Source: Crocinitomicaceae bacterium (lineage in GTDB: Bacteria > Bacteroidota > Bacteroidia > Flavobacteriales_D > Crocinitomicaceae). Taken from it: DNA of 64,000 nt. The translations under genes were made by a program, and so were the position numbers. Below are positions 5,563 through 24,169 of this stretch, piece by piece (positions within the stretch are counted from its first letter, which is position 1; each line of letters opens with the position of its first letter). The notes beneath the pieces are model-generated. The model saw nothing but the letters and a program-made list of their open reading frames with translations. It was not told where the DNA came from and searched no databases. The stretch covers positions 186,001 to 250,000 of the forward strand of contig JAQXBM010000022.1 of NCBI GenBank assembly GCA_029252405.1. Reading direction: 5' to 3'.

Positions 5563-5580
5563 TGAAGAAAGAATTAACAC

Positions 5581-5596: not shown

Positions 5597-5610
5597 AACC
5601 AACATAACAT

Positions 5611-7827: not shown

Positions 7828-7846
7828 GAATTCTTTAAGAATTAGT

Positions 7847-7895: not shown

Positions 7896-7968
7896 TTTGA
7901 GTGGCGCCCGTTAAAAAACGTTAAGCCCATGTTAACGTTCGTTCCTTTATCTATATTCGTTAACTGAC

Positions 7969-9585: not shown

Positions 9586-9586
9586 T

Positions 9587-10282
9587 ATGAAAAAGAATAC
9601 TTCCATTTTACTAGCAGAGGACGATTTGAACCTTGGACAATTGCTCCAAACTTTTTTGAAGACAAAAGGCTTTGAAGTATCATTGGCTCAAAACGGTAAA
9701 ACGGCATTGGAGCGATTCCACGAAGGGTCGTTTGATTTCTGCATTTTCGATGTCATGATGCCTGAAATGGATGGCTTTACACTCGCAAAGGAAATTCGCG
9801 AAATTGACAAGCAAACACCGATCTTATTCTTGACGGCTAAGGCGATGAAGGAAGACAAGCTCGAAGGGTTCTCTCTTGGTGCCGATGATTACCTCACGAA
9901 GCCATTCGCCATGGAAGAATTGTTGGCGCGAATTAACGCAATCTTGCGTCGAGTAGATACTTCTGATGAGGAAGAAGATGGATCAAGAATGATTGGAGCA
10001 ATCAAATATGAACCAGAATTGCGCTTACTTCATTTAGAAGAAGAAACGAAAAAACTGACGACAAAGGAAAACCAACTTTTGACCTTGCTTGTCAAAAATC
10101 AGAACGATATCTTGGATCGCCAAGCAGCATTGCGCGCTATCTGGGGAGATGACAATTATTTCAACGGTCGAAGCATGGATGTTTATATCGCGAAATTGCG
10201 TAAAGCACTGAAAAGCGACGAATCAATTGAAATCATGAACGTTCACGGAAAAGGGTTTAAGTTGATCGTGAAGGAGGCTTAA
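9587..10282 (+). CDS. OmpR-family response regulator (RprY-like)
   Basis: A 231-residue DNA-binding regulator. The receiver domain spans residues about 6-120, with acidic pocket E11-D12-D13, phospho-acceptor D55 in FDVMMPEMDG and conserved K105 in LTKPF. The C-terminal winged helix covers residues about 140-230 (LTTKENQLLTLLVKNQ, GRSMDVYIAKLRKAL, NVHGKGFKL). It is the obvious partner of the kinase gene ending one base upstream (TAATATG junction). Target promoters cannot be read here. The operon seems to end at a perfect 19-bp inverted repeat 12 bases downstream. Confidence 0.93.
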   Translation: MKKNTSILLAEDDLNLGQLLQTFLKTKGFEVSLAQNGKTALERFHEGSFDFCIFDVMMPEMDGFTLAKEIREIDKQTPILFLTAKAMKEDKLEGFSLGADDYLTKPFAMEELLARINAILRRVDTSDEEEDGSRMIGAIKYEPELRLLHLEEETKKLTTKENQLLTLLVKNQNDILDRQAALRAIWGDDNYFNGRSMDVYIAKLRKALKSDESIEIMNVHGKGFKLIVKEA

Positions 10283-10294
10283 AATGTAGAATGC

Positions 10295-10336
10295 GAGTTA
10301 GGAATTAAGAATTACACAATTCTTAATTCCTAACTC
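10295..10336. terminator. Perfect 19-bp inverted repeat between convergent genes
   Basis: The arm gagttaggaattaagaatt (10295-10313) is followed by the loop ACAC and an exact reverse complement (10318-10336). It fills almost the whole 62-base gap between the plus-strand regulator gene and the minus-strand VOC gene. The AT-rich 19-bp stem could stop transcription in both directions, although no long T tract follows. It could also be the remnant of a small repeated palindromic element. Confidence 0.6.
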
Positions 10337-10344
10337 AACTATTC

Positions 10345-10701
10345 TTAATTTTCCGTCTCGGTCCAAACAGCCAATTCATTTCCCGATGGATCCATGAACT
10401 GGAATCGCTTTCCTCCAGGAAAAGAGAATATTGGAACGTTGATAGTTCCACCAGCGACTTCAATTTTTCGGATCACTGCTTCTAAATCATCGTGAAATAT
10501 GACAATCAAGGCGCCGTTCGTGATAGGCTCATCAGAAGCCTCAAAACCTCCTGCGATTCCGCTTGTTTTCTCTTCAAATGAAACATAGCTCGGTCCGTAA
10601 TCTGTGAATTCCCATTCAAAAACGTAGGAGTAAAATTCCTTAATAGCTGCAAGATCCATTGCCTTGAACTCGATGTAATTAATGTGATTGTTTGTTGCCA
10701 T
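10345..10701 (-). CDS. VOC-superfamily (glyoxalase-like) protein
   Basis: A 118-residue cytosolic protein with the beta-alpha-beta-beta-beta modules of the vicinal oxygen chelate fold: NHINYIEFKAMDLAAIKEFYSYVFEWEFTDYG at the start and IFSFPGGKRFQFMDPSGNELAVW at the end. Members include glyoxalases, fosfomycin-resistance proteins and many proteins of unknown substrate. The first-strand residues give no confident metal site, so enzymatic activity is unproven. It lies 6 bases downstream of the interrupted DinB-like gene in the same direction and probably shares its transcript. Confidence 0.82.
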   Translation of the reverse strand: MATNNHINYIEFKAMDLAAIKEFYSYVFEWEFTDYGPSYVSFEEKTSGIAGGFEASDEPITNGALIVIFHDDLEAVIRKIEVAGGTINVPIFSFPGGKRFQFMDPSGNELAVWTETEN

Positions 10702-10707
10702 GTTTGA

Positions 10708-11181
10708 TTAGGTATTTGGTTTTCGTATCAAGCGTTTCAAAATCACAATCTGTCCCAAATGATAATGCATGTGCTCAATCATTCCATGAATATTGCGAAA
10801 GTAACTGCCGTATTTTTCATCCGTGAAAGCTTCTTTTAATTGATCTTCAGGCAATCCTTCAATCAGTAAAGCCGCACCTTCAGCGTTCTTCCAAGCGGTA
10901 TTCTGAATCTTTTGCCAATCAGCATCAGATGAAATTTCTGGGCACAAAAAACTCAATTCATCTTTTGAAGTCAATGCTTTCCCATTCAAAACATCCAAAA
11001 GCGCAGTTACGTAGTACGTCGTGTGAAAAGTTAAGACAGCAATTGTGTTAAAATCATCAATTTTTGTTGTCGCTTCTTTCTACGAAACATCTGATAGGAC
11101 GTCTTTCAAATTCGTTGTGGTCCAATTTCCACCGAAGTGAATATCCCGTAAATGCTTTGCCGTTTGCTCGGTGAGGGTCAT
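10708..11181 (-). pseudogene. DinB/DUF1572-like protein interrupted by an in-frame TAG
   Basis: Read on the minus strand, an ATG at 11181-11179 opens MTLTEQTAKHLRDIHFGGNW..., and the frame runs to a TAA at 10708 except for one amber codon at 11080-11082 (codon 34). The sequence around it reads LSDV-S-stop-KEATTKID. Relatives of this DinB-superfamily group carry Trp there (as recalled for the family), so a single TGG-to-TAG change explains it. After the stop come VLTFHTTYYVTALLDVLNG and the C-terminal HGMIEHMHYHLGQIVILK, with the expected His residues of the four-helix metal-binding bundle. A downstream TTG could start only the last 96 codons, which would lack helix 1. It may be a recent pseudogene or a sequence error. 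Confidence 0.75.
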
Positions 11182-11194
11182 GAACTAACGATAA

Positions 11195-12685
11195 TTATTC
11201 TGTCAAAGATGGATACCAGATTGTTTGAATTTCCTCTAGTTCCAAATCGCTCTCTTGGTTGACATAAACCGTGTATCCTTCGACGATTAGTGCTTGCATT
11301 TTTTCTGATGATGGAATGGTGTTGTAAGCTGTGCAATTGGAATGAAACATTAACTCAATGGGGCGGTTCACATTGAAAACGACAACTTTTTCTTGTTGGT
11401 TGATTTGGTCGGAAAGCTCCGTAATATCATTTTGCCAATCGGGAGAGTTCACTGTTTGAAAAGGCTTCGCGCGTTCTATGGTAAAGCGAATGGGTAAGGC
11501 TATCAAGGCGACAACACCAAGGATTGGGACCCAACGGTAGTTGAATCTTTTTCGAAAACGAATCAAGAAATCGATGAATAAGGCAAGTACCAGAAATACA
11601 GCAGGAGCTGCGAAAACAGTGTAGCCTTGCATCTTCGTCATCACGATTGAAAAGAAAATGTAGGGAACAGCAATCCAGATGAACAAGGCCCAGTACTTCC
11701 AGTTTGTGCGTTTACGAATGGTCTTGTAGGCGAACCATATCAACGGGAGGTAAATCAACTCACCGTAATTGATGCGCAACATTGTGAAATGGTAATACCA
11801 AGGTTGAACACTTACATCCAATGTTTCAAAAACGTGCTTGGAATTAAAGGTGCTTTCCCAAGCTGCTTCCAACGGGAATTCACTGTGAATGTACAATTGC
11901 CAAGGTAAAACAACCGCTGCTATCGCCGCACATAAGACCAATCCGTGAGCCAGTATTTCTTTGAAACTGAATCGTTTTGAATACAGGAGAAAAGCTCCCC
12001 AAATTGGCAACACGATGAGCGCAGGAAGCCACTTGGACAAAACGGCTAATCCAATGGCGATCCCACAAAGAATATTCAGAAAGAGGGATTTTCGTTGAGC
12101 AAATTCCCATCCTAAATAAATCGCCAGCTGAATGAAAAAGAGGAAGAATATGTCAATGTGATCGGTAGCAACACGACCGCTGGATATTTCCAAAATCAGT
12201 CCGTTTGTAGCATAGAAAACGGCAGCGAAGAGACCGACTCTCCGACTGAATAATTGCTTTCCGAATCGATAAGAAATGATTGTTCCGAGCGAGGTCAATA
12301 AGATGGACGGGAGTCGAACTGCGAAGCTGTTCACACCAAAAACCGCCAAACTCGACATGATTCCCCACAAAGGAACAGGTTGTTTGTGCAACCAAATGTG
12401 ATTGTACGTCCACATCTTGTAATCGTACTCCAAAATAGGCTTGTCGAAAAGCGTTGGAACCAAGGGATGATTCAACATGTTTTTAGCAACAAGTGCATGA
12501 TAGCGTTCATCCCAAGGGTGTAAAAATAGATCTGATGACATGTATACCTTCAGCAATAAACCGATCAATACGATCAGTCCAATAGCAAAGGTGTATTTCT
12601 GATTTTTGAATGATCGCCAAGAAGCCCAAGCCGAAAGTGCAATTACGACGAGTAAAATAGATCCAAGAAGTGGTGAGTTGTACAC
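11195..12685 (-). CDS. GT39/ArnT-like membrane glycosyltransferase
   Basis: A 496-residue polytopic membrane protein with about 11-12 hydrophobic helices. After TM2 comes DLFLHPWDERYHALVAKNM, with the acidic D-E pair in the first periplasmic loop typical of the PMT/ArnT (GT39/GT83) superfamily. ILTSLGTIISYRFGKQLFSRRVGL and RVATDHIDIFFLFF are further family landmarks. Such enzymes transfer a sugar from a polyprenyl-phosphate carrier to lipid A, protein or another acceptor on the periplasmic face. Donor and acceptor are not evident. A C-terminal periplasmic domain of about 90 residues follows the last helix. It stands alone, with the broken DinB gene 13 bases downstream. Confidence 0.82.
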   Translation of the reverse strand: MYNSPLLGSILLVVIALSAWASWRSFKNQKYTFAIGLIVLIGLLLKVYMSSDLFLHPWDERYHALVAKNMLNHPLVPTLFDKPILEYDYKMWTYNHIWLHKQPVPLWGIMSSLAVFGVNSFAVRLPSILLTSLGTIISYRFGKQLFSRRVGLFAAVFYATNGLILEISSGRVATDHIDIFFLFFIQLAIYLGWEFAQRKSLFLNILCGIAIGLAVLSKWLPALIVLPIWGAFLLYSKRFSFKEILAHGLVLCAAIAAVVLPWQLYIHSEFPLEAAWESTFNSKHVFETLDVSVQPWYYHFTMLRINYGELIYLPLIWFAYKTIRKRTNWKYWALFIWIAVPYIFFSIVMTKMQGYTVFAAPAVFLVLALFIDFLIRFRKRFNYRWVPILGVVALIALPIRFTIERAKPFQTVNSPDWQNDITELSDQINQQEKVVVFNVNRPIELMFHSNCTAYNTIPSSEKMQALIVEGYTVYVNQESDLELEEIQTIWYPSLTE

Positions 12686-12743
12686 GAAGCTTCAATTGTC
12701 GATGAACGGCTGCAATTTACAAAAATGAGCTATTCAATACGTG

Positions 12744-13595
12744 TCAATCATCTTCGCCGAACTCGAATTCTTCAATGTTTGGTGCGAAATGATCGTTTTC
12801 CCACTTTAAGACAAGAGTATGAATGGTGGTTTTCATCCAATTCATATCCTCATCCATTGATTCACCAAACTCCCGTTTGTAAACCACTGCTTCGTGGTAT
12901 CCTTCTTCATCATCAGGAAAAGCAACGCTTTCATCGAACCAAAATGCACCACCATCGGCCACACTTGACAATTGCAGTGCTTCAACAAGTCGTTCTCCAG
13001 TATCGAAAAGGTAGGTTTTCCCTCCATCTACTCCACACGCTTCTGCAAATAAGTTGATGCTGAAAATATTGTCAACTCCGTCCAATCCTCGATTATTCGA
13101 AGCTGCAATGAAGAATGAGTTGGTGTTCAAGTCTGATTCATGTCCGTAATATTCGCCGTCTGCCCGAATCATGCGTGTACGAACTTTATAATCGATGTAT
13201 TCGTAATCATCACCATCTCGATTAACACCTGCAGCCGTCACCAAAAACACAACATCGTCTCGTCGAACGTGATCTAAAGCAATCAGTCCGCCAAGGATGT
13301 AGCCTTTTTTTCCATCAACTTTAACCTTGTACCAATTCCATTCTAGACCGTTCAAGGAAGTTTTTTCGTCGCTTTTTCGAATGATTTCTACTTCCGAGCC
13401 GATTTCCAAGGTGTCAATTGCCTTTGAAGAAGCGGACGGCCCCGATCGAAATACGACATTGTCTCCATACAGCAACTCAGTGCTGCCATCTTCAAATTCA
13501 TAGTCAGGGCTAACAATGCGTTCATTGTCATATTGAGCATTTGCCGAGAGTGCAATCAACAAAGAAAATAAGGTGATAATTTGATTGAATTTCAT
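12744..13595 (-). CDS. Secreted protein with bacterial SH3-like domain
   Basis: A 283-residue protein with a signal peptide (residues 1-20, ending ANAQ). Residues about 45-105 resemble a bacterial SH3 domain: VVFRSGPSASSKAIDTLEIGSEVEIIRK...WYKVKVDGKKGYILGGLIA has the strand pattern and the final W-x-K-V...G-x-I/V-x-G signature. The remaining 175 residues are acidic, and I do not recognise them. SH3b domains often bind cell-wall peptides, which would suit an envelope protein, but no catalytic motif is visible. It is flanked by 58 bases to the glycosyltransferase start and 72 bases to the next gene. Confidence 0.68.
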   Translation of the reverse strand: MKFNQIITLFSLLIALSANAQYDNERIVSPDYEFEDGSTELLYGDNVVFRSGPSASSKAIDTLEIGSEVEIIRKSDEKTSLNGLEWNWYKVKVDGKKGYILGGLIALDHVRRDDVVFLVTAAGVNRDGDDYEYIDYKVRTRMIRADGEYYGHESDLNTNSFFIAASNNRGLDGVDNIFSINLFAEACGVDGGKTYLFDTGERLVEALQLSSVADGGAFWFDESVAFPDDEEGYHEAVVYKREFGESMDEDMNWMKTTIHTLVLKWENDHFAPNIEEFEFGEDD

Positions 13596-13667
13596 GTGTT
13601 TGATTTTGATAGGAGGAAATTACAATTATTGAACCAAGAAAAGTGGAAGTTTGATTAATCGTATAGA

Positions 13668-14663
13668 CTATTTGATTATCTGATAAATGACCACTGAAGC
13701 TACACCTTCCTTTTTCAGTCTTTTTGAAACACCTAAAGCGATAAGCTCGTCATTGTCTGAATAAGTCACATCCCAAAAGGTCCCGTTTCCAAGTCGTGAT
13801 TCGATTGTGCCATTGATAATGTTGAGTAGAACCGCTCCTTTTTTCTGAAAAGCAAATACCGCGTACGTACCGTCAGAATTGACATCCAATGAAGTAACGG
13901 TTCCTTGTAAATCCCAAATTCGTACATCTCGCCAATACTTTGAATTGATTTGCACCACTGAAGCTCCATCATTTACAAATACGTAATGACCATCCGTGGA
14001 AAACGCCAAATCATTTGCATCCTTATCCGATTTTCGATATTTCAGCAGTGATCCAGACTCCAAATCATAAATGCGAACACCAGCATTCTCTCCCGCAAAT
14101 GAGACGCCCAAGTACTTTCCGTCGTCACTCACCTTTATGGCCGTAGGCACCGCAGCTCCATGTTTGTTTTCATCAAAATAGACAGTTGATTCCTCGAGCG
14201 TTTCTAGATTCAACCTTACGATTTGGTAGGTGTATTTTTCCGTTGATGCAACGACGATCGCATCTTTTGTCCCTTTAATGATTGCTGATAATCCATAAGG
14301 TCGTTCCGTTTGGGTTGAGGTCATCCCCGAACTGTCCAAAACGTTAAGGTTGTTATGCATATCTGCAATGTCCTTCGCTTCGGTATTGTAGTTGGAATTT
14401 CCATTCATCCAACGTCCTGTTCCATCGTAGCTACTTTTATTGACAGTATATCCAGGGATTTCGGTTGTACTCGATAATTTCTGACTTGGGATATCCCACA
14501 CAACTAAATCGTCCCAATCGCCCAAAACTTTCGTTCCATCTTCTGAAAAATGAACCGTTCGGATGCTTTCGTTGTATCCCGAGTATTCAATTGGACCAAT
14601 AATGTTTAGTTGAGCGCTCGATGAAAACGCGATAACGCTGAATAGGAAAAGGACCTTGTACAT
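13668..14663 (-). CDS. Secreted WD40-like beta-propeller protein
   Basis: About 331 residues. I chose the ATG at 14663, which gives the signal peptide MYKVLFLFSVIAFSSSAQ; a longer open frame upstream to 14807 lacks one. The mature part shows repeated blades with SEDGTKVLGDWDDLVVWDI, SDDGKYLGVSF...VRIYDLESGSLL, STDGHYVFVND, RDVRIWDLQGTV and NSDGTYAVFAF, typical of WD40/YVTN propellers. Such propellers are binding scaffolds, and the ligand is unknown. It is probably periplasmic or exported; no T9SS tail is seen. Confidence 0.75.
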   Translation of the reverse strand: MYKVLFLFSVIAFSSSAQLNIIGPIEYSGYNESIRTVHFSEDGTKVLGDWDDLVVWDIPSQKLSSTTEIPGYTVNKSSYDGTGRWMNGNSNYNTEAKDIADMHNNLNVLDSSGMTSTQTERPYGLSAIIKGTKDAIVVASTEKYTYQIVRLNLETLEESTVYFDENKHGAAVPTAIKVSDDGKYLGVSFAGENAGVRIYDLESGSLLKYRKSDKDANDLAFSTDGHYVFVNDGASVVQINSKYWRDVRIWDLQGTVTSLDVNSDGTYAVFAFQKKGAVLLNIINGTIESRLGNGTFWDVTYSDNDELIALGVSKRLKKEGVASVVIYQIIK

Positions 14664-14899
14664 AGATGAATTATTAAAGTGTTGAGCGAGTAAGACTAAG
14701 TTAGGTAAATTGTGAGAAATAAATGAGTTTGATGTATTTTGTGGGGAACGCTTTGTTTGATTGAAGAATGAGAGGGCCCGAATACATCTCAAATAACAAT
14801 TTAACACGTCCCAAATTATAATTTAGGGCGATGCAGCGGCAGTTCAACCATAGATTTGTCTCAACGTTTCAATTCTGAAGCGCACTAAAAAAGATAAAA

Positions 14900-15490
14900 A
14901 TGAAAAGTATAGTTTTGATCGCAAGTTTGGTTTTTGGAATGACACAAGGGATTTGTCAAGAACAAGTGAGCGTTAAGAAAAAGAGTTCTGTTGAACTGAC
15001 GTATGAGGATTTTGAAACAAGCGTCGTTCAGATTAAAAACAAGTCATTGCAAACCATTGATGTTAAGGTTGAGGACGCTACAACGAAAAAGTGGATCAAA
15101 GGATTTGGATTAGGTCCCAAAGGAAAAGTTTCTGTTGATGTGAAGCCTGGGCAAGTGCTTATTTTCACAAATGATTCAAAAACGAAGGTTGACGTCGCAC
15201 TGGATTTCATCAAGCGTAAAGCACCAAAGGAAGCTGCAGTAAGCAACAAAATGATCACGTTCACCTTGCACAACTCAAGTGCCAAATCGATTCCATTGGT
15301 CATTCCAGCAGTGATGAATCCGAATTTATCACCGTTCTCAAACAGTGGAGTGAAACTGAAAGTAGGGCAGAAAATCTACTATAAGAAAAATGGCAAAAAG
15401 AAGCTTTTGCTGGAGGTTGATGATTCAATTAGTGATGGTGAGAAACTCGATATTGCCAAGCTCATCAAGAAACTTGAAAAAGAAAAGTAG
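14900..15490 (+). CDS. Secreted protein of unknown function
   Basis: A 196-residue exported protein with a signal peptide at residues 1-19 (ending GICQ). The mature part is Lys-rich and predicted beta-rich, with two similar halves: one around IKNKSLQTIDVKVED...GPKGKVSVDVKPGQVLIFTND and one around TLHNSSAKSIPLVIP...GVKLKVGQKIYYKKN. This suggests an internal duplication of an Ig- or fasciclin-like strand pattern. It ends in a basic helix (KLIKKLEKEK). I do not recognise the family. The AraC regulator gene starts 27 bases downstream and may be co-transcribed. Confidence 0.65.
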   Translation: MKSIVLIASLVFGMTQGICQEQVSVKKKSSVELTYEDFETSVVQIKNKSLQTIDVKVEDATTKKWIKGFGLGPKGKVSVDVKPGQVLIFTNDSKTKVDVALDFIKRKAPKEAAVSNKMITFTLHNSSAKSIPLVIPAVMNPNLSPFSNSGVKLKVGQKIYYKKNGKKKLLLEVDDSISDGEKLDIAKLIKKLEKEK

Positions 15491-15517
15491 TTTTAAACCT
15501 CAGTTCGATACGGTCAG

Positions 15518-16651
15518 ATGACAATATATACAACACCACTTCAGTTCGGTTATTTCTTCAGTTTAGCAATGTGGCTGGTCTTCTTGTACCGCGGATTTAA
15601 TCAGAATCGACTTTCAGATAAAATGCTGGGCTGGGTGATGTTTATTCTGGCAATGGAACTGCAAGATTACACCTTTGGATTTGCAGGAATCAATGTGCTT
15701 TGGAACGAGTTAAATGGATTTCCCCGTGATGTGACCTTGCTTTTCGGACCAATTATCTATTTCTACTTCAAAAGTCAGATTAACCGTTCGTTCACTGTCA
15801 GGAGGAGAAGTTTGATCCACTTTCTACCCTATACGATCTACTTTTTATATCACATTTTCTTCTTTGTGCAGGGGCCTGAAGCAGTGGAGTGGAGGCAGAG
15901 TTCCACGATGGATAATGTGCTGTTTTACATTCTTCTTATCGGTACTTGGGTGAGTTACATTTTCTACTTCACGCAGTGTTTGAAAATCTACAGGCGATAC
16001 AAACGCTGGTCCTTGAATCAGTTCAGTAATTTGGAATTAATCGGTTTTAACTGGTTCCGAAATTTCATTTACGCCATGATTATTTGGCTGATCAGTAGAC
16101 AAATCATGAATGTTTTAGACATCATTTTCGATCTCGATTTTCATCAGGATTGGTGGTGGAATTTAGTACTCGTCGCTGTGACATTTTACATTGGCTTGGC
16201 CGGTTACTCCCAAGTTCAGCCTGCGCAAATCAACTTCAATTTTGATGAATTACTCAAGGATGAGGTAAAGGAAGAAGCGCAGGAAATAGAACGCAAAGAT
16301 GATGCTAATCACAGAATCGACATGCTCGCAAAGCAGCTATCTGAAGTGATGGAGAAGGAAAAGTTGTTTCTCAATCAAGATTTGAACTTGCAGTACCTTT
16401 CGAAGCGACTAAAAACGAATTCAGTTGAGCTTTCAGCGACGATTAATCAAACTTTCAAAAAGAACTTCAACGATTACATTAACGCGCTCCGTGTGGAGGA
16501 ATTCATCCGACTTTCTCAAGACGAGAAGCGTTCGCACTTTACCTTATTATCGAATGCGTACGATGCAGGATTCAGTTCCAAGTCAACGTTTAACCGCGGG
16601 TTCAAGAAAATCAAGGGCGCTGCGCCAAGAGAGTACCTCGCGAAAAAGTAG
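15518..16651 (+). CDS. Membrane-anchored AraC-family transcriptional regulator
   Basis: A 377-residue protein with an N-terminal membrane region (residues about 1-235, six or seven helices, e.g. FGYFFSLAMWLVFLYRG and WWWNLVLVAVTFYIGLAGY) and a cytoplasmic C-terminal AraC/XylS domain (residues about 275-375). The double helix-turn-helix shows LNLQYLSKRLKTNSVELSATINQTF and AYDAGFSSKSTFNRGFKKIKGAAPREYL, matching the second-HTH signature. This 7TM-plus-AraC layout is common in Flavobacteriales. It should sense a membrane or extracytoplasmic cue and bind DNA from the membrane. Targets are unknown; the secreted protein gene 27 bases upstream is a candidate. Confidence 0.84.
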   Translation: MTIYTTPLQFGYFFSLAMWLVFLYRGFNQNRLSDKMLGWVMFILAMELQDYTFGFAGINVLWNELNGFPRDVTLLFGPIIYFYFKSQINRSFTVRRRSLIHFLPYTIYFLYHIFFFVQGPEAVEWRQSSTMDNVLFYILLIGTWVSYIFYFTQCLKIYRRYKRWSLNQFSNLELIGFNWFRNFIYAMIIWLISRQIMNVLDIIFDLDFHQDWWWNLVLVAVTFYIGLAGYSQVQPAQINFNFDELLKDEVKEEAQEIERKDDANHRIDMLAKQLSEVMEKEKLFLNQDLNLQYLSKRLKTNSVELSATINQTFKKNFNDYINALRVEEFIRLSQDEKRSHFTLLSNAYDAGFSSKSTFNRGFKKIKGAAPREYLAKK

Positions 16652-16663
16652 AAGGTTTTAGGC

Positions 16664-16692
16664 ACAAAAAAACCCACCTTCTCAGGTGGGTT
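16664..16692. terminator. Bidirectional terminator between AraC and DUF2911 genes
   Basis: AACCCACCT (16671-16679), loop TCTC and AGGTGGGTT (16684-16692) form a perfect 9-bp stem. The A run at 16664-16672 provides a T tract for the minus-strand gene that ends at 16713, and the hairpin also sits just after the plus-strand AraC stop. Confidence 0.85.
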
Positions 16693-16712
16693 CTAATATT
16701 CGTTTCAAGCAA

Positions 16713-17564
16713 TTACTTCACTTTCTTGCTCCACTCTTGGATGGATTCTGTATTCATTTTTACGTAATTGTCGTAGTTCGCTTCTTTAGCAGCTGCCAAT
16801 GAAAGCTTCGCAGTTGAAATTGCCTCTTTGTATTGACCTAATTCTGCTTGAATCAATGCTTTTCTTCGCAAGTACCAGAATGGATCATCTCCACGCATTT
16901 CCAACGCTGTGTTGATGTATTCCAACGCAGTGTTCATTTCCATTTTCTGTGACAAGTAGAAATCTGCCGCTTTGTAGTAATCTCCAGCGCTTGGTCCAGC
17001 CATTGTCTTTTTAATGTCAGCCATAACTGCTTCAGTCGTTGTAACTGAGAATGCCGCAACCGCTTTCACCTTATCCCAAGAGAAAGTCAACTCAGCACCA
17101 TCCATTTGCACATTGTCAATTCCAACTGTAAACGATTCAGTAACTGAAGACATTTTGCTAACAACTGCAGTTGTTTGTAACGCTACGTTTTCTTCCTTCC
17201 AGTCTTCTGGAGTTCCCCAGTTTTCAGTGTCAGTGTAGAAATAAACATCCCATGACTTCCCGTTCTTTGGAGTCGTGAAAATCGCGTACGTTCCAGCTTC
17301 CAATGTATCTTTTCCGAAGATGAGAGAATTGTCTACTGTGATCATCGTGTTTTTGTTTGCACCAGTTCGCCACATTTTGTCGTAAGGAACGAGTTCACCA
17401 AAAATCACACGGTCTCTTTTCGCTGGACGTGAATATTCAACAGTTACTTCTGTAAGTCCCACTGTTTGCCATGCCTTTGCTGCTGGACTCGGTTGTGGAG
17501 TTTTGATTTGTGCTGTAAGTGAGAAACTTCCCAAACACAAAAGTGCAATCATTATCTTTTTCAT
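16713..17564 (-). CDS. DUF2911 protein with TPR-like C-terminus
   Basis: A 283-residue exported protein. Signal peptide at residues 1-18 (ending LTAQ). Residues about 20-170 carry the DUF2911 pattern: VTVEYSRPAKRDRVIFGELVPYDKMWRTGANKNT, KDTLEAGTYAIFTTPKNGKSWDVYFY and LTFSWDKVKA. Residues about 190-283 form TPR-like helices (AADFYLSQKMEMNTALEYINTALEM, EAISTAKLSLAAAKEAN). DUF2911 proteins are abundant in Bacteroidota and periplasmic or outer-membrane associated, but no biochemical function is established. A TAATTTTG element lies at 17592-17599 on the minus strand, 28 bases upstream of the ATG. Confidence 0.88.
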   Translation of the reverse strand: MKKIMIALLCLGSFSLTAQIKTPQPSPAAKAWQTVGLTEVTVEYSRPAKRDRVIFGELVPYDKMWRTGANKNTMITVDNSLIFGKDTLEAGTYAIFTTPKNGKSWDVYFYTDTENWGTPEDWKEENVALQTTAVVSKMSSVTESFTVGIDNVQMDGAELTFSWDKVKAVAAFSVTTTEAVMADIKKTMAGPSAGDYYKAADFYLSQKMEMNTALEYINTALEMRGDDPFWYLRRKALIQAELGQYKEAISTAKLSLAAAKEANYDNYVKMNTESIQEWSKKVK

Positions 17565-17744: not shown

Positions 17745-20192
17745 TTGAAACGATTCTTATTATTCTTTTTTACGACAATCACTTTATCATCTTTTGCAAA
17801 CGAAGGAAGTGGAGAGATTTTTGTCAACTTACAGAAACTGCACTCTCTCAAACGCGTGTTGTACGTGGCTGCGCATCCTGATGATGAGAATACACGAGCA
17901 TTGGCTTGGTTTTCTCTGGGTGAAAAAGCTGAGACGGCTTATTTTTCCCTGACACGTGGAGATGGAGGTCAGAATTTGATCGGGAATGAGTTGAGTGAAG
18001 AGCTCGGAGTTTTGAGAACGCAGGAATTGCTCGCAGCACGATCTCACGATGGAGCAAAACAATACTTCTCACGCGCCGTTGACTTCGGTTATTCGAAATC
18101 CGCTGAGGAATCGTTTGAGCTTTGGGGAAGAGAAATTTTGCTTTCAGATTTAGTGTTGATCATTCGAAAATTCAAACCTGAAGTTATTGTTACGCGCTTT
18201 CCACCGGACGAACGGGCTGGACACGGACATCATACGGCTTCGGCATTATTGGCGATTGAAGCGTTCGAAAAAGCAGCAGATAAATCCTACGAACCGAATC
18301 AAGTGAAAGAATACGGGACATGGCAATCGACTTCAATTTATTGGAATACGTCATATTGGTGGGATGAAAACATCAAGGGCATGGCGGAAGGCGATCCGAA
18401 TTATTTGATTACTGATATCGGTGGTTACAATGCGCAATTGGGAATGTCCTACAATGAGGTTGGGACTTTGGCGCGTAGTGAACACAAATGCCAAGGATTT
18501 GGAGGAATTATTGAACGCGGTAGTCGTGTGGAGTACTTCAAGCATATGGCAGGTGAAAAACTTACGGGGTCTTTCTTTGAAAAGTCAAAAGAGTCGTGGT
18601 CCAAAATGGGCGACAAACAACTGGAAAAGGACTTTCAAGATGCAATAAACTCCTTTGATTTCATTGATGTTTCTAAAAACGTTCCGCGATTAATAAAGAT
18701 TTTGAAAGGGTTGAAACAACTGCCTTCGTCATATATCGTAGATGAAAAGATTTCACGCTGTGAGACGATCATCAAAGATTGTTTGGGATTGCACGCTGAA
18801 TTAGTGGGCGATCAATTCTCGTTTACACAAGGCGACAACCTTACATTGAAAGCGAATTTGATCAATCGTTCTGGTTTGGACCTTAAATTATCCAAAGTTG
18901 AATTGAGTACGGGTGAAACACAAACTGTGGATTCAGTATTGCTTTTGAATGATCGTTTTGAATTGCAATTGACATCCAATGGAAATACAGAAATTTCTAA
19001 TCCTTATTGGTTGAATGCACCTTTCACAACGTTGTTTGAAGTAAAAGATCCAGCTAATTTGTGCGCACCAGAAAGTCGACCGAGCATCACTGCACGATTT
19101 ACAATTATGGTGGATGGCGAAGCCTTCGGGATGACCATTCCAGCAACATACAAATGGCGCGATCCTTCTTACGGAGAAAGACGCCGACCATTTATTTCCA
19201 CACCCGATTTCACAGCAAGTTTTGAGCAGAAGCAACTGTTGATGAAGGCTGGAGATCGAAAAGAAGTTCGAATTAAAGTCAAGAATTTCAGAGATAGTTT
19301 GGACACGAAGTTCACGCTCAACGTACCAGAAGGCTGGAGAGTGAAACCTCAAGAATTTGACGTTTCGTTCAAGTCTAAGCATGCTGAGGAATGGCTGACA
19401 TTTACGATTCAAACTGGTGACAATCCACAATCAGGAACTGTGATGGTTTCGGATTCGGATGGAAATCCACTCATGAATTATAAAGAAATTGCCTACGATC
19501 ACATTCCAACCCAAGCCTTATTCCGCAAAGCGACAATGGAATGCAAAGTGTTGGACGCAAAGATCAATGAAGGAAGAATCGCCTACATCAAAGGTGTAGA
19601 AGATGCCGTTCCTCAAGCGATTGAGCAATTAGGTTTCACAGTGGATTTATTCGAAGTGAAAGATATCCCAAGCATCGACTTTAGCAAGTACCAAACGGTC
19701 GTATTGGGGATTCGAATTTACAACGTACACCCTGAGTTATTCAATTACACGAACCAATTGAACTCGTACGTTGAGAACGGCGGAAACTTGGTGATGCAAT
19801 ACAATACCGCTTCTCGATCGATCAGAGAGAAGAAGTTCGGGCCCGTTCCCTTTGAGTTATCTCGAAACAGGGTAACGGAAGAAGATGCGGTAGTGACTTT
19901 CTTAGCGCCGGATCATCAAATCATGACGTCACCTAACGCAATCACAAAAGCCGATTTCGATAATTGGGTGCAAGAGCGAGGGTTGTATTTCGCCAATAAC
20001 TGGGACGAAAACTATACACCACTTTTCTCTTGGGCTGATAAAGGAGAAGATGCTCAAACAGGAGCACTCATTGTCACGAAATACGGAAAAGGACAGTTTG
20101 TTTATTCAGGAATTTCCTTCTTCAGAGAATTGCCAAATGGTGTCATTGGCGCGTACAGATTATTCGCAAACATCTTAAGCTATCAGCCATGA
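17745..20192 (+). CDS. PIG-L/LmbE-family deacetylase, large secreted form
   Basis: An 815-residue protein starting at TTG. Signal peptide at residues 1-18. The PIG-L zinc site is AAHPDDENT (H44, D46, D47) with the second element ERAGHGHHTAS (H160, H162, H163). These metallo-amidohydrolases remove N-acetyl groups from GlcNAc-type substrates. After the catalytic domain (about 30-290) come Ig/NEW3-like beta regions (about 350-620) and a C-terminal class-I-amidotransferase-like domain (about 630-815). This long multidomain form is exported, unlike the small cytosolic deacetylases. Its stop overlaps the start of a microprotein gene (ATGA), which in turn overlaps a sodium:solute symporter gene. A linked cleave-and-import role is inference. 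Confidence 0.86.
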   Translation: MKRFLLFFFTTITLSSFANEGSGEIFVNLQKLHSLKRVLYVAAHPDDENTRALAWFSLGEKAETAYFSLTRGDGGQNLIGNELSEELGVLRTQELLAARSHDGAKQYFSRAVDFGYSKSAEESFELWGREILLSDLVLIIRKFKPEVIVTRFPPDERAGHGHHTASALLAIEAFEKAADKSYEPNQVKEYGTWQSTSIYWNTSYWWDENIKGMAEGDPNYLITDIGGYNAQLGMSYNEVGTLARSEHKCQGFGGIIERGSRVEYFKHMAGEKLTGSFFEKSKESWSKMGDKQLEKDFQDAINSFDFIDVSKNVPRLIKILKGLKQLPSSYIVDEKISRCETIIKDCLGLHAELVGDQFSFTQGDNLTLKANLINRSGLDLKLSKVELSTGETQTVDSVLLLNDRFELQLTSNGNTEISNPYWLNAPFTTLFEVKDPANLCAPESRPSITARFTIMVDGEAFGMTIPATYKWRDPSYGERRRPFISTPDFTASFEQKQLLMKAGDRKEVRIKVKNFRDSLDTKFTLNVPEGWRVKPQEFDVSFKSKHAEEWLTFTIQTGDNPQSGTVMVSDSDGNPLMNYKEIAYDHIPTQALFRKATMECKVLDAKINEGRIAYIKGVEDAVPQAIEQLGFTVDLFEVKDIPSIDFSKYQTVVLGIRIYNVHPELFNYTNQLNSYVENGGNLVMQYNTASRSIREKKFGPVPFELSRNRVTEEDAVVTFLAPDHQIMTSPNAITKADFDNWVQERGLYFANNWDENYTPLFSWADKGEDAQTGALIVTKYGKGQFVYSGISFFRELPNGVIGAYRLFANILSYQP

Positions 20193-20302
20193 GCGAGGAA
20201 AAAGACGGAACGAATTGGACGGCGTGGTACATCGGATTGATGTTGTTCCTGCTCATTCAAATTATCGTGTATTTATTGATCACTAATTATTACGCCAAAT
20301 GA
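20189..20302 (+). CDS. 37-residue single-pass membrane microprotein
   Basis: The short open frame starts at an ATG overlapping the TGA of the deacetylase gene (ATGA, 20189-20192) and ends with a TGA overlapping the ATG of the symporter gene (ATGA, 20299-20302). It encodes a charged N-terminus (MSEEKDGTNWT) followed by one hydrophobic helix of about 20 residues (residues about 13-32) and a short tail, NYYAK. The exact four-base overlaps on both sides and the clean transmembrane segment strongly favour a real gene. By position it could be an accessory subunit of the symporter, like other small subunits of secondary transporters. No homologue is recognised with certainty. Confidence 0.7.
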   Translation: MSEEKDGTNWTAWYIGLMLFLLIQIIVYLLITNYYAK

Positions 20303-22017
20303 GTTTAATCGATTGGTTGGTATTGATGGGTACGCTCGCGTTAATCGTTGGGTACGGAACTTGGAAGACGCGCAAAAACAGCAATCTTCAGAGTTATCTC
20401 AAAGGAAATAATTCTGAAAACTGGGCAACGATTGGTCTATCGATCATGGCGACGCAAGCCAGCGCGATTACCTTTCTTTCGACCCCAGGTCAGGCCTACG
20501 AAAGTGGAATGGGCTTCGTGCAGTTCTATTTTGGTTTGCCCTTGGCGATGATCGTTATTTCGATCTTTTTCCTACCCGTCTATTATCGACTGAAAGTCTA
20601 CACGGCATATCAATATTTAGAGCAACGTTTTGATGTGAAGGTGCGTTCATTCACTGCCTTTTTATTCCTAGCGTCTCGTGGATTGGCGGCAGGAATTACC
20701 ATCTACGCCCCTTCAATTATCCTTTCAACCATTCTAGGATGGAACTTGCAACTAACCTGTTTACTCATTGGAGGACTCGTAATTATTTACACTGTTTCAG
20801 GCGGAAGTAGAGCGGTTTCTCTGACTCAGAAATGGCAAATGGGAATCATTATGGCGGGGATGTTCTTTGCGCTATACTATGTGGTAGGAAGTTTCCCAGA
20901 GAACATTGGTTTCATGGACGGCGTCGACATTGCTGGAAGCTTGGGTAAAATGGAAATCATTGACTTGAGCCCTGACCTAAGTAATCGCTACACCTTACTT
21001 TCCGGATTAACAGGTGGATTCTTCTTATTCGTTTCATATTTCGGAACGGATCAATCACAAGTTCAGCGTTATTTAGGAGGTAAATCTTTGAAAGAATCGA
21101 GAATGGGATTGATGTTCAACGGTCTACTCAAAATCCCAATGCAGTTCTTCATATTAATTGTTGGGGTGATGGTATTCGTATCGTTTCAATTCAACAGGCC
21201 ACCGATTGTTTTCAATCCAGTTACCGTTGAAATGACGGCTGAGCAGCAACTTGAATTGGATGCTATCGAAGCGGAATACGATGTTGTTTTCGAAGAGAAA
21301 AGATCCTTGCTCAAAGATTTCAAAAGTCCAGAGAAGAGTGCAGAGAATACGATGATTCAGAACTTGCAAATTGAACAGGATTCATTGCGCCAAAGCTATA
21401 AGTCGACCTTGATGAAAATTGATCCTGATTTCGAGGAGAAAGATTCAGATTATATCTTCTTGACCTTCATTCTTAATTACCTTCCGCATGGACTGATCGG
21501 ATTATTGCTCGCGGTGATTTTCTCGGCGGCAATGTCGTCTACGGCAGGTGAATTGAACGCGCTCGCAGCCACTACGACCATCGATTATTACAAGAAATTC
21601 TGGTCGAAATCTGATGATGAAAAGAAAGACCTTCGCGTAAGTAAAATGTTGACAGTGGCTTGGGGATTACTCGCCATATTAATCGCACTCACCGCAGGAA
21701 TGTTCGAGAATTTAATTCAACTCGTGAATATTCTTGGGTCCTTGTTCTACGGAACGATTCTGGGAATCTTCCTCTTGGCATTGTTCTTCAAAAAGACGCA
21801 CGCGACTGCCGCTTTGATTGGAGGTTTGGTGGCGCAGATTACCGTTTTGTCAGTTCACCTCTTGAAAACGTACGAAATCATCGATATCGGCTATTTGATG
21901 TACAACTTCATTGGTTGTGCTGTGGTAATTTTGGTTGGACTGATTGTTCAGATGATGATTGGAAACAAGAACGAAGACACATCAATAATCGATAGTAGCG
22001 ATTCCTTGAATGAATAG
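20299..22017 (+). CDS. Sodium:solute symporter (SSS family)
   Basis: A 572-residue inner-membrane transporter with about 13 helices. Family landmarks are WATIGLSIMATQASAITFLSTPGQAYESG near the N-terminus (unwound TM1/Na+ site region), the central GGFFLFVSYFGTDQSQVQRYLGGKS, and AVIFSAAMSSTAGELNALAATTTIDYYK, which carries the conserved Ser/Thr-rich Na+ site of TM8. An unusually long charged insert (residues about 308-385, rich in Glu, Lys and Asp) separates two helices and is probably cytoplasmic. The substrate is unknown. Translation is coupled to the upstream microprotein and deacetylase, so a sugar or amino-sugar product of the deacetylase is one possible substrate (inference). Confidence 0.88.
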   Translation: MSLIDWLVLMGTLALIVGYGTWKTRKNSNLQSYLKGNNSENWATIGLSIMATQASAITFLSTPGQAYESGMGFVQFYFGLPLAMIVISIFFLPVYYRLKVYTAYQYLEQRFDVKVRSFTAFLFLASRGLAAGITIYAPSIILSTILGWNLQLTCLLIGGLVIIYTVSGGSRAVSLTQKWQMGIIMAGMFFALYYVVGSFPENIGFMDGVDIAGSLGKMEIIDLSPDLSNRYTLLSGLTGGFFLFVSYFGTDQSQVQRYLGGKSLKESRMGLMFNGLLKIPMQFFILIVGVMVFVSFQFNRPPIVFNPVTVEMTAEQQLELDAIEAEYDVVFEEKRSLLKDFKSPEKSAENTMIQNLQIEQDSLRQSYKSTLMKIDPDFEEKDSDYIFLTFILNYLPHGLIGLLLAVIFSAAMSSTAGELNALAATTTIDYYKKFWSKSDDEKKDLRVSKMLTVAWGLLAILIALTAGMFENLIQLVNILGSLFYGTILGIFLLALFFKKTHATAALIGGLVAQITVLSVHLLKTYEIIDIGYLMYNFIGCAVVILVGLIVQMMIGNKNEDTSIIDSSDSLNE

Positions 22018-22088: not shown

Positions 22089-23126
22089 ATGATTGTATCC
22101 AAGAACTTTGTGACCGCAAGGACGCTGTTTTTCACGCTTGCGCGCATAAGAATTTTGATAGGTTTCACGATCGTAATCGCAGTGCTGTATCACTTCGAAT
22201 TAATCAAGGTGAACCTACCGTGGCTTCCACTTTCTGTGATCGGTACCGCTGTAGCATTTTATGTTGGTTTCAAAAACAACCAATCGTATGACCGTTTATG
22301 GGAAGCCCGTAAAATTTGGGGAGGAATTGTCAATGACAGTCGAACTTGGGGTATGATGGTTGACGGGTATGTTTCCAACTTGCATGCTGAAAACAAAAAG
22401 ACCGAAGAAGAATTACATGAAATCAAGCAGGGTTTAGTTTACAGGCATATTGCATGGCTCTATCAACACAGAAGACAACTCTTGGTGCCTACACCTTGGG
22501 AACATGTGAGTCAGAAAACGAAACGCGGGGAGAGTCTGCAAAGAACAATTCAAAAAAGGGGGGCTGGTTTGTTCGATCGACAAAACGGTCAAGTCGACAT
22601 GGAACATTTCCTTGATTCTGAGGAATTCGAGCGAATTTCAAAACATAAAAACTCTGCGACGCAACTCATCAATGAGCAGTCAAGAGTGCTAAGTCAATTG
22701 AGAGAAGAAGGAGTGATTGATGATTTCCGACACATGGAAATGGAAAATGTTCTTAAGAGCTTTTACACCCTGCAAGGAAAGAATGAGCGAATCAAGAAAT
22801 TTCCACTGCCGAGGCAGTACGCCAACATGAGTCGAATTTTCGTCTTCATTTTCATGGCACTTTTGCCCTTCAGCATGTTGCCAGCACTGATGGCAGAAGC
22901 CGGAGATTATGGACTGTTAATCGGTGTTCCTGTTACCATACTCATCGCTTGGGTGTATTTCATGATGGAGGCGGTAGGCGATTTTTCTGAGAATCCCTTT
23001 CAGGGCGTTTTATGGGATATCCCCATGTTGTCGCTTTGTAGAACGATAGAAATTGATTTGCGCGAAATGCTCAAGGAAACGGATTTGCCGGATCCAGTTC
23101 AAGCACACGATAACACCTTAATGTAG
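22089..23126 (+). CDS. Bestrophin-like anion channel protein, copy 1
   Basis: A 345-residue membrane protein of the bestrophin/UPF0187 family. TM1 is about 20-35 and TM2 about 42-60, then the family block FYVGFKNNQSYDRLWEARKIWGGIVNDSRTWG. A helical cytosolic stretch follows (about 95-235), then two further helices (FVFIFMALLPFSMLPALMA; VTILIAWVYFMMEAVGD) and NPFQGVLWDIPMLSLCRTIEIDLREML. Bacterial members form pentameric channels passing anions or cations. It is followed 8 bases later by a second, clearly paralogous gene, suggesting duplication and perhaps mixed pentamers. Start: ATG at 22089 after aattagaca, with no strong Shine-Dalgarno. Confidence 0.9.
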   Translation: MIVSKNFVTARTLFFTLARIRILIGFTIVIAVLYHFELIKVNLPWLPLSVIGTAVAFYVGFKNNQSYDRLWEARKIWGGIVNDSRTWGMMVDGYVSNLHAENKKTEEELHEIKQGLVYRHIAWLYQHRRQLLVPTPWEHVSQKTKRGESLQRTIQKRGAGLFDRQNGQVDMEHFLDSEEFERISKHKNSATQLINEQSRVLSQLREEGVIDDFRHMEMENVLKSFYTLQGKNERIKKFPLPRQYANMSRIFVFIFMALLPFSMLPALMAEAGDYGLLIGVPVTILIAWVYFMMEAVGDFSENPFQGVLWDIPMLSLCRTIEIDLREMLKETDLPDPVQAHDNTLM

Positions 23127-23134
23127 AGCGCACG

Positions 23135-24169
23135 ATGTTAATAGAAAAAACAATAAAAGCAAGGACGCTCATTATTTGGACATGGTTCAATATAGTGTGG
23201 TTGTTGGCGTTTTCAGGAGCTGTAGCAGCGTTGTACGCTTTTGAACTCATTAAGTTTGAGATCCCTTGGTTACCAGTTTCGGTCATTGCGACGGCAGTAG
23301 CGTTTTACGTCGGTTTCAAGAACAGTCAGGCCTATGATAGAATGTGGGAAGCACGTAAGATTTGGGGAGGAATTGTCAATGATAGTCGATCGTGGGGAAT
23401 GATGGTCGATGGGTACGTTTCGAATCAATTTGCCGAGGATAAACTCAGTGACGAAGAGTTGCAGCAAATCAAAACCCGCCTTATGTATCGACACGTCGCA
23501 TGGTTGTATGCGCATAGAAGTCAATTGCTCATCCCAACTTCTTGGGAACATGTTAGTCAGGGAAAACGTACAGGAAAAGTTGCAAAATACTATCAAGATA
23601 CATTCGGAATTGGATTGGTAGCAGATGAAGCAACAAAGGTCAACTTGGAGAGTTTTCTTCCTAAAGATGAACACGAGCGTTTGATCAATTTTAAGAATAC
23701 TGCAACGCAGATCATCAATGAGCAATCAAGAGATATTCAAGAATTACGAGAAAGAGGATTGATTGATGATTTCCGTCACGTGGAAATGGTGAAAGTCTTG
23801 AGGGGTTTCTACGCGTTGCAAGGAAAAAACGAACGTATCAAGAAGTTTCCTTTGCCTCGACAATATGCCAACATGAGTCGCATTTTCGTGTTTATTCTTG
23901 TCGCACTTTTGCCTTTTAGCATGATGCCAGCCCTTCAAGCAATGGGAGAATGGGCGTTTTGGTTATCTATTCCAGTAACGGCGCTTGTCGGTTGGATTTA
24001 TGTGATGATGGAGTCCATAGGCGATTACACCGAAAACCCCTTTCAAGGAATGGCGAACGATATTCCAATGCTCTCGCTCTGTCGAATTATTGAGATTGAT
24101 TTGCGCGAAATGCTCGGGGAAACAGATTTACCACCAAATGTGGAAGCGAAGAAAGGAATTTTGATGTAG
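23135..24169 (+). CDS. Bestrophin-like anion channel protein, copy 2
   Basis: A 344-residue paralogue of the preceding gene, sharing long blocks: FYVGFKNSQAYDRMWEARK, IWGGIVNDSRSWGMMVDGYV, GKNERIKKFPLPRQYANMS and ENPFQGMANDIPMLSLCR. The two differ mainly in the N-terminal leader, the loop at about residues 140-190 (DTFGIGLVADEATKVNLES here) and the last 12 residues. Nucleotide sequences have diverged widely at third positions, so the duplication is not recent. The 8-base spacing to copy 1 argues for one transcript. Function as in copy 1: oligomeric ion channel in the inner membrane. Confidence 0.9.
   Translation: MLIEKTIKARTLIIWTWFNIVWLLAFSGAVAALYAFELIKFEIPWLPVSVIATAVAFYVGFKNSQAYDRMWEARKIWGGIVNDSRSWGMMVDGYVSNQFAEDKLSDEELQQIKTRLMYRHVAWLYAHRSQLLIPTSWEHVSQGKRTGKVAKYYQDTFGIGLVADEATKVNLESFLPKDEHERLINFKNTATQIINEQSRDIQELRERGLIDDFRHVEMVKVLRGFYALQGKNERIKKFPLPRQYANMSRIFVFILVALLPFSMMPALQAMGEWAFWLSIPVTALVGWIYVMMESIGDYTENPFQGMANDIPMLSLCRIIEIDLREMLGETDLPPNVEAKKGILM

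Follow-up and report, generated by a model that had tools for sequence, protein, structure and literature searches.

A conserved single-helix microprotein as a likely accessory subunit of a clade of bacterial sodium:solute symporters

Sodium:solute symporters of the SSS/SLC5 family are mostly treated as one-chain transporters. Small membrane partners are known for other large transporters. KdpF, AcrZ and similar one-helix proteins of about 30 to 50 residues bind to a far larger protein, a P-type ATPase or an RND pump in these cases, and tune it. A small hydrophobic subunit referred to as DUF4212 or TIGR03647, which is longer and has two helices, is encoded just before the bacterial SSS symporters of the VC_2705 type. 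MAP17 (PDZK1IP1) is a single-helix protein associated with human SGLT2 and SGLT1 and is oriented with its N-terminus outside. According to PMC10803289, MAP17 binds to TM13 of SGLT and its helix contacts the transporter through the extracellular half, and the references of PMC10710835 include a structure of AcrB with its single-helix subunit. In the main text of a review on the SSS family (PMC7918813) the words subunit, accessory, DUF4212 and MAP17 have zero occurrences. Among the structures listed in the current analysis, SGLT1 and SGLT2 with MAP17 are the only partner-helix complexes by title.

In the current analysis we have considered a window of 64,000 nucleotides from a Crocinitomicaceae bacterium, in which a microprotein, MSEEKDGTNWTAWYIGLMLFLLIQIIVYLLITNYYAK, is encoded between a deacetylase-like gene and a symporter gene (Table 1). 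It has one hydrophobic segment, with a best 17-residue Kyte-Doolittle mean of 2.88. The ATGA overlaps that had been claimed on both sides of its frame are present; the TGA of the ATGA at 20189-20192 closes the deacetylase frame, which has a TTG start, and the symporter frame begins with the ATGA at 20299-20302. Neither Pfam nor NCBIfam gave a family for the microprotein in scans of the window protein and of 30 members; the latter took matches up to E 1, where the HMMER filters discard most matches above about 0.1, and no paper on this microprotein was recognised in the literature searched.

Table 1. Features of the microprotein locus, in positions of the window
Feature	Positions	Strand	Description
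PIG-L/LmbE-type zinc deacetylase-like protein	17745..20192	+	815 aa; signal-like N-terminus; PF02585 E 1.5e-14
AHPDD motif of deacetylase	17871-17885	+	residues 43-47
Single-helix microprotein	20189..20302	+	37 aa; W10 and Y14 conserved just before helix; N-in/C-out by charge
Microprotein codons I31-T32	20279..20284	+	periplasmic helix end; predicted symporter contact; strongest inter-protein couplings
Sodium:solute symporter (SSS)	20299..22017	+	572 aa, 13 predicted helices; PF00474 E 5.4e-42; TIGR00813 above cut-off
Symporter codons M218-I220, TM5-TM6 loop	20950..20958	+	predicted microprotein contact; position from L052 model helices
TM7-TM8 loop insertion of symporter	21193..21447	+	~85 charged helical residues, about 299-383

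The symporter belongs to the SSS family by both PF00474 (144.5 against 22.8 bits) and TIGR00813 (239.8 against 184 bits). The Na+/sialic acid symporter SiaT (PDB 5nv9/5nva) is its best solved chain by sequence (E 8e-41) and also the top match by fold, tied with NIS and SMCT1, the LeuT-type fold having been recognised on a model of a relative, L052, rather than of the window protein (5nva, Z 37.8, rmsd 2.5, 464 residues aligned). The insertion between TM7 and TM8 distinguishes the symporter from SiaT, to which residues 301-386 of the query are unaligned; the L052 model has helices at the matching place. Of the SiaT residues that bear on Na+ coupling, serines 342-343 align with S413 and S414, and the Na3 aspartate, D182, aligns with Q177. 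Na+-coupled uptake by this symporter is putative. Plasmid records gave no match to it at 1e-50.

The microprotein resembles DUF4212 in its small size, its hydrophobicity and a gene position immediately ahead of an SSS symporter, and differs from it in its single helix. The DUF4212/TIGR03647 small-subunit profile was unmatched by the 30 members up to E 1 in Pfam and NCBIfam, and the symporter reaches 53.9 bits with the large-subunit model TIGR03648, whose cut-off is 320.75. KdpF and AcrZ, compared through the Pfam and NCBIfam scans only, are similar as small one-helix partners of a large transporter, which in the present case is an SSS symporter. The likeness to MAP17 consists of a single-helix protein that is predicted to bind a transporter, the transporters sharing the SSS/SLC5 fold, and the fold matches include SGLT-MAP17 entries. 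Unlike MAP17, the microprotein is encoded beside its symporter and by its charges has the N-terminus inside, and the MAP17 family is not among the 18 Pfam families matched by any of the 30 members. TM13, the site of MAP17, is seemingly missing from the 13-helix symporter, because the alignments of the model stop near residue 550 of SGLT2.

A set of 223 loci, each made up of a symporter relative and its upstream DNA, has been used to follow the microprotein. Loci were obtained from 30 of the 32 first matches (G006 and G059 yielded none), and one relative set comprises the best 80 of 582. A single-helix frame of 26-62 residues, with a median of 38, adjoins the symporter upstream in 214 of the 223 loci, so the tiny frame is conserved in relatives, the check that the original prediction had put forward; in the remaining loci it is found elsewhere in the genome (5) or is absent (4). 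At this length, and outside Pfam and NCBIfam, the microprotein is easily missed by annotation. A fixed filter (ATG start, 26-65 residues, hydropathy of at least 1.7, stop within -70 to +10 of the next start) is passed upstream of 200 of the 222 symporter homologues having at least 200 nt upstream. In the control, 12 of 325 other frames of at least 250 residues from the named loci and the window pass, 7 of them, by eye, with the C-terminal helix of the symporter itself. The microprotein frame upstream of the symporter is therefore far beyond chance. The 22 symporters failing the filter comprise 11 with the same kind of protein initiated at GTG or TTG, two (L087 and L162) in which the microprotein lies 88 and 190 nt upstream, and the five and four loci just mentioned. 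The microprotein is also present in L099 and L208.

Comparison of close relatives shows purifying selection on the microprotein as a protein, the uncorrected pN/pS being 0.19 (pooled, 47 close pairs). A W-x3-Y motif is found in 198 of 213 microproteins; among the 15 without it, position and hydropathy were the basis for assigning five (L129, L140-L142 and L144), and L109 is likewise doubtful. Profile A3 has one matching place at E<0.1 in the genome of the window, where the two other SSS genes have just unrelated short frames upstream. Among 118 genomes, 44 match A3 at E<1e-5, and the symporter, searched with at most four candidates scored per genome, is also encoded in 43 of these; the 44th, G086, has a symporter remnant beside the microprotein. 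In two further groups the microprotein is beside the symporter in 8 of 8 loci read closely. These surveys of genome sequences show the microprotein to be present almost wherever the symporter clade occurs.

The five symporter loci with a separated microprotein (L120, L124, L127, L130 and L096) include two lineages in which the genome sequences show that it has been kept although no longer beside the symporter. In four genomes of one genus it is located about 15 kb away (pS 0.244, pN 0.026), and in G333 the distance is 108 kb. In L039 and L111-L113 the microprotein was not found by profile, and no natural fusion of microprotein and symporter was seen in loci without it. Adjacent deacetylase and symporter genes with no frame in the gap, which the original prediction had named as the observation that would count against it, do occur in these four loci. 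The absence in L111-L113 reads as a lineage-specific loss, because G086 (L249), of the same tool-assigned genus, keeps the microprotein. Since these four loci lack it, the microprotein appears dispensable for some symporters of the clade.

The orientation of the microprotein has been inferred from its charges, with means over 206 distinct sequences of 3.1 K+R and 2.3 D+E before the helix and 0.48 K+R and 0.12 D+E after it, giving a predicted cytoplasmic N-terminus and outer C-terminus. Coevolution was analysed by mean-field DCA on 209 microprotein-symporter pairs, an effective number of 126. DCA replaced plain mutual information with APC, in which a clade-specific residue (L/N21) was dominant and the maximum (z 7.1) lay inside ten local-shuffle nulls (5.8-7.5); the top-10 mean of the plain score, 6.2, is just above the best null, 6.0. 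The top two inter-protein couplings are T32-I220 (8.4 sd) and I31-M218 (6.8 sd). The former exceeds the strongest coupling in each of 15 locally re-paired nulls; one null, the highest at 7.1, tops the latter. In the 13 nulls with a listed top pair, that pair never comes from the I31/T32-M218/I220 patch. Of 47 sequences with M32, 37 have I220, and of 138 with T32, 31 do. Both couplings remain in the top three under two alternative weightings, with a different pseudocount and in three random subsets, and each of two disjoint clades ranks one of them first, the other not being among the eight pairs shown. The TM5-TM6 loop is periplasmic by helix count, and the covariation places the periplasmic end of the microprotein (I31, T32) putatively on this loop (M218, I220). 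A read-through fusion model, with the microprotein stop read as Gly and both genes as one chain, was built with L052 as query from 43 of 62 candidate relatives having both genes in one frame. Its helix and symporter are confident and its linker is not, and it gives no interface; the VIA-align fold comparison of this model barely tested the microprotein part.

As judged from the sequences, the microprotein is quite likely to be an accessory subunit for the SSS symporter encoded next to it. The original prediction of such a subunit is supported in part, by the conserved helix that goes with the symporter in 214 of 223 loci and by the coevolution signal. Another role for the frame would be that of a translational coupler, handing ribosomes on from the deacetylase gene to the start of the symporter gene while its peptide is inert. 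In keeping with it, the frame overlaps the symporter by 4 nt in 89 of 213 loci, and 20 loci, mostly close relatives, have both overlaps, but 124 loci are without the symporter overlap, the amino acids are conserved as the pN/pS and the W-x3-Y motif indicate, and both genes are kept 15 or 108 kb apart, the former under the low pN noted above, so that the microprotein is not just a coupler, an explanation which we regard as highly improbable. The strict three-gene translational chain claimed earlier accordingly describes the window and does not hold as a general rule. Equally small is the probability that the microprotein serves the deacetylase as a partner or membrane anchor, its position between the genes being operon history. 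The two frames overlap in the window, and 153 of 213 loci have a long deacetylase no more than 300 nt upstream; however, 48 loci with microprotein and symporter have none in the same-strand flank (1.5 to 5 kb), and the trio once proposed is for this reason not a fixed unit. In 10 loci 409-1760 nt separate the deacetylase from a microprotein still adjoining the symporter. The microprotein of G096, G146 and G076 is beside the symporter, and a different contig carries the deacetylase. Of 118 genomes, 44 match the long deacetylase at E 1e-30, none of them from family f34, whose genomes have both microprotein and symporter. Because of the 48 loci in particular, the microprotein is seen to follow the symporter, not the deacetylase, in these genomes.

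Small membrane proteins that regulate membrane stress or other complexes exist, and the microprotein could be an independent protein of this type, only co-regulated with the symporter. The plain MI-APC result, with no clear signal above null, is compatible with this, as is the derivation of the contact from sequence data; yet the symporter is encoded in 43 of the 44 profile-positive genomes, the other having a remnant, and the residue-level couplings lead to one loop on the expected side of the membrane, which makes independence improbable. The microprotein is probably bound to the importer as an additional small subunit, and by analogy it is best explained as one accessory helix beside the 13 helices of an SSS symporter, working in a manner somewhat comparable to that of MAP17 on SGLT2. 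In this comparison the one helix is observed, and the binding is suggested from coevolution only.

The accessory subunit would span the membrane, the charged N-terminus being cytoplasmic, the conserved Trp and Tyr lying at the inner membrane edge and the C-terminus at the periplasmic face. Its helix would pack beside the 13 helices of the symporter, I31 and T32 touching M218 and I220, and this contact may stabilise the transporter or tune the opening of the outer gate. The operon order and the ATGA overlaps would match synthesis of the proteins in many species and would not be essential. The importers of this clade may thus be two-part rather than one-part machines. If true, a widespread bacterial microprotein subunit would provide a simple model for a single helix tuning the SSS fold, and expression of the large chain alone would omit part of the machine. 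A more elaborate proposal, which we consider rather unlikely, is a two-chain SSS clade in Bacteroidota and two further groups, with a 13-helix core and a separate N-in/C-out helix that stands in for TM13, the fourteenth helix in SGLT-type symporters, or occupies the place of MAP17, controls the outer gate via the TM5-TM6 loop and belongs to a transporter fed by the product of the secreted deacetylase.

The upstream protein is a PIG-L member by PF02585 (55.1 against 28.2 bits) and by its AHPDD motif, which is conserved in 97 of 97 full-length relatives taken. Its model (pLDDT 88.8) has MshB and diacetylchitobiose deacetylase as nearest folds, and by these neighbours it is a candidate N-deacetylase acting on a sugar. 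In what is the weakest step of the proposed mechanism, the secreted enzyme would probably N-deacetylate a GlcNAc-type glycoside to give the substrate of the symporter. The locus would then define a putative periplasmic-deacetylase-plus-importer pathway. The amino-sugar role is plausible in view of the GlcNAc-glycoside deacetylase folds and, in one family, of a gene of the glucosamine-6-phosphate isomerase type close to the symporter. Among the 80 of 134 first neighbours scanned, mostly on the same strand, Gfo/Idh/MocA oxidoreductases occur in 15, and none of the 25 families shown is otherwise a constant partner.

The deacetylase, microprotein and symporter genes of the window are listed in the table below. 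The 37-residue frame with an ATGA overlap at each end, as put forward in the original prediction, is borne out in the window sequence, where the ATGA at 20189-20192 joins the deacetylase to the microprotein and that at 20299-20302 joins the microprotein to the symporter. The window microprotein has no match in Pfam at E 0.001 or in NCBIfam at E 0.1, and 30 members scanned singly gave scattered weak matches to unrelated families only (best Ycf70, E 0.00057). No paper recognised as dealing with the microprotein was found in the literature searched, and a term search of the SSS review PMC7918813 gave no match. PMC11364881, a global catalogue of small proteins, may well hold microprotein sequences without an assigned function.

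Genes of the deacetylase-microprotein-symporter locus in the window
Gene	Position	Strand	Features
PIG-L protein (long deacetylase)	17745-20192	+	815 aa; PF02585 match
Microprotein	20189-20302	+	37 aa; ATGA joins at both ends
Symporter	20299-22017	+	572 aa; SSF/SSS PF00474 and TIGR00813 matches

Symporter relatives came from three sets. Of 60 related genomes 32 had one (30 loci taken, without G006 and G059); a survey of 296 genomes of the phylum gave matches in 114, which with that of the window make 115 places, all fetched; and of 582 relatives in genome_contigs the best 80 were kept, Pontibacter, Marivirga, Algibacter, Tenacibaculum and Polaribacter being among the named ones. The three sets comprise 224 loci (L001-L144, L149-L228), or 223 without L223, which has no upstream DNA; L149/L009, L150/L017 and L226/L007 are apparently, from their equal lengths, the same contigs counted twice, and L072 and L082 belong to one genome. 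A small one-helix frame adjoins the symporter, at most 190 nt upstream, in 214 of the 223 loci, which confirms the conservation of the tiny frame in related genomes. One fixed filter is passed upstream of 200 of 222 symporters, whereas of 325 other long frames 12 pass, seven of these 12 being, as judged by eye, the last helix of the symporter itself. Allowing GTG/TTG starts recovers 11 more microproteins and allowing larger gaps those of L087 and L162; in L203 the microprotein is present and the upstream DNA is too short for the fixed filter.

The microproteins are 26-62 residues long (median 38, 212 assigned), and a W-x3-Y motif is found in 198 of 213; among the 15 lacking it, position and hydropathy were the basis for assigning five (L129, L140-L142, L144), and L109 is also doubtful. 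For the microprotein, 47 close pairs taken together give an uncorrected pN/pS of 0.19 (pS 0.52); for the symporter, compared over its first 1500 nt, the value is 0.08 (pS 0.61). The strict three-gene translational chain proposed earlier holds in the window and not generally, both overlaps being present in 20 of 213 loci, and is a local feature. L162 has, some 1.7 kb upstream of its intact microprotein, a second, truncated copy (628-801) that is almost identical to the intact one across the first half and suggests a local duplication.

The microprotein sequence profile at E 1e-4 also matches 4 of 5 genomes in the phylum of the L224 genome (labelled 'Deltaproteobacteria bacterium') and, in the phylum of the L177 genome (labelled 'Opitutales bacterium'), 11 of 194, five of these 11 lying outside the loci read. 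Eight further loci read from these phyla (three and five; L263-L270) have the microprotein between deacetylase and symporter, where it overlaps the symporter start or precedes it by up to about 155 nt.

A search of 118 genomes with the profile alone gave 44 matching genomes at E<1e-5 and 46 at E 0.01, the weaker matches falling in other, mostly long frames. The symporter is encoded in 43 of the 44, beside the microprotein in 39 and separated from it in four; the last is G086. Symporter genomes without a profile match are G171, an absence, and G139, which has a divergent copy seen by eye (L116) and which we infer to belong to the 118-genome sample. In 153 of 213 loci the long deacetylase is no more than 300 nt upstream of the microprotein, and in 10 the distance is 409-1760 nt; it was not found in the same-strand flank (1.5 to 5 kb) of 48, and two flanks are too short to score. 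In three genomes (G096, G146, G076) the deacetylase is on a separate contig and the microprotein remains with the symporter. A search for the long deacetylase at E 1e-30 matched 44 of the 118 genomes, none of them from the family f34. In the window's own genome the profile matches one place at E<0.1, and the short frames upstream of the two other SSS genes (PF00474) are unrelated to the microprotein. The profile co-occurrence, the deacetylase-free loci and the other SSS genes without a microprotein together identify this clade of symporter as the predicted partner. The earlier suggestion, that the microprotein may serve the symporter as a small accessory subunit, has good support from the comparative evidence, with binding and function as predictions.

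Five loci apparently without a microprotein are separations, the microprotein being present elsewhere in the genome. In four genomes of one genus (G158, G097, G112, G085) it lies directly downstream of a 219-234-residue frame, of the WbqC family in G158, and about 15 kb from a symporter that is 96-97% identical to the L125 orthologue, which has its microprotein adjacent. Pooled pS of 0.244 and pN of 0.026 show that these four separated microproteins remain under selection. In G333 the symporter is 108 kb from the microprotein on one contig, and the neighbour gene of the microprotein resembles, by eye, the gene flanking it in the sister genome G341. As the genomes fall in different families the two separations were taken as independent, and the retention of the microprotein in both argues for a protein that would act in trans.

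The finding named beforehand as contrary to the prediction, deacetylase and symporter adjoining with no such frame between them, occurs in L039 and L111-L113, from two families, and a profile search of their genomes (G220, G202, G171, G194) gave nothing above chance level. For L111-L113 loss in the lineage is likely, because G086, of the same genus, keeps an intact microprotein between the deacetylase and a symporter remnant. In this remnant (L249, 2540-3000) about 25 first symporter codons run straight into C-terminal sequence read in a different frame, reflecting gene decay or misassembly. Near position 3500 of L111, L112 and L113 (symporter turned to +) the deacetylase stop overlaps the symporter start by 4 nt, the arrangement that a precise excision of the microprotein gene between its two overlaps would leave.

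Among 206 distinct microprotein sequences the mean K+R is 3.1 before the helix versus 0.48 after it, and the mean D+E 2.3 and 0.12. By the positive-inside rule the K+R values suggest an N-in/C-out topology, the net positive excess before the helix being modest. The microprotein and symporter of the relative L052 were modelled as a single chain with the stop codon read through (pLDDT 86.8, pTM 0.87), giving a helix at 13-35 that a disordered linker (38-50) joins to a symporter counted as 13 membrane helices. Among solved structures SiaT (5nva) heads the fold matches at Z 37.8, level with NIS and SMCT1; against SGLT2 the alignments stop near residue 550, before TM13. By helix count the symporter N-terminus, TM5-TM6 loop and TM7-TM8 loop would be periplasmic. 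The Na3 aspartate of SiaT aligns with Q177 of the window symporter. The TM7-TM8 loop carries a charged helical insertion of about 85 residues (window 21193-21447), kept in position and variable in sequence among relatives, that could bind the secreted deacetylase.

Mean-field DCA of 209 paired sequences (effective 126) ranked microprotein T32 with I220 of the symporter TM5-TM6 loop first (8.4 sd), I31 with M218 of the same loop second (6.8 sd) and I31-I220 fifth. Swapping partners among the 10 nearest relatives gave two nulls with maxima of 5.7 and 6.4, and swapping among the five nearest gave 13 with maxima of 4.5-7.1, each of these 13 with another leading pair; T32-I220 thus exceeds all 15 null maxima and I31-M218 14 of them. 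I220 accompanies M32 in 37 of 47 sequences and T32 in 31 of 138. Both pairs stay in the top three when the weighting is set to 0.7 or 0.9 or the pseudocount to 0.3, and likewise in each of three random draws of 150 sequences. When two disjoint clades of 71 and 138 sequences were analysed, T32-I220 led in the former and I31-M218 in the latter, the other pair being absent from the eight shown for each. Mutual information with APC, a simpler statistic, was not clearly above its null. In the predicted topology the helix end that carries I31 and T32 is periplasmic, as is the loop with M218 and I220, an agreement of sides that was not imposed.

The AHPDD motif is kept in the 815-residue deacetylase and in all 97 full-length relatives taken. 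The nearest folds to its model (pLDDT 88.8) are MshB, a GlcNAc-inositol deacetylase, and diacetylchitobiose deacetylases, the matches being partial (228-295 alignment columns for 815 residues). The commonest family among the neighbours scanned is the Gfo/Idh/MocA oxidoreductase (15 of 80), which together with the deacetylase folds fits a sugar pathway. A candidate amino-sugar module is a reasonable guess for the deacetylase-microprotein-symporter trio. The 15-kb cluster between microprotein and symporter in G158 (L255, G158:C5:106300-125500, 2197-17336), the one of the four such genomes in which the intervening DNA was read through, includes a glucosamine-6-phosphate isomerase-type gene, a 288-residue PIG-L, SusD, MFS, ROK, PcRGLX-like, Na_sulph_symp and other genes, and gives a hint that the symporter is linked to amino sugars. 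In the window, a tandem pair of similar membrane proteins (345 and 344 aa; 22089-24169), which look bestrophin-like, lies 3' of the symporter.
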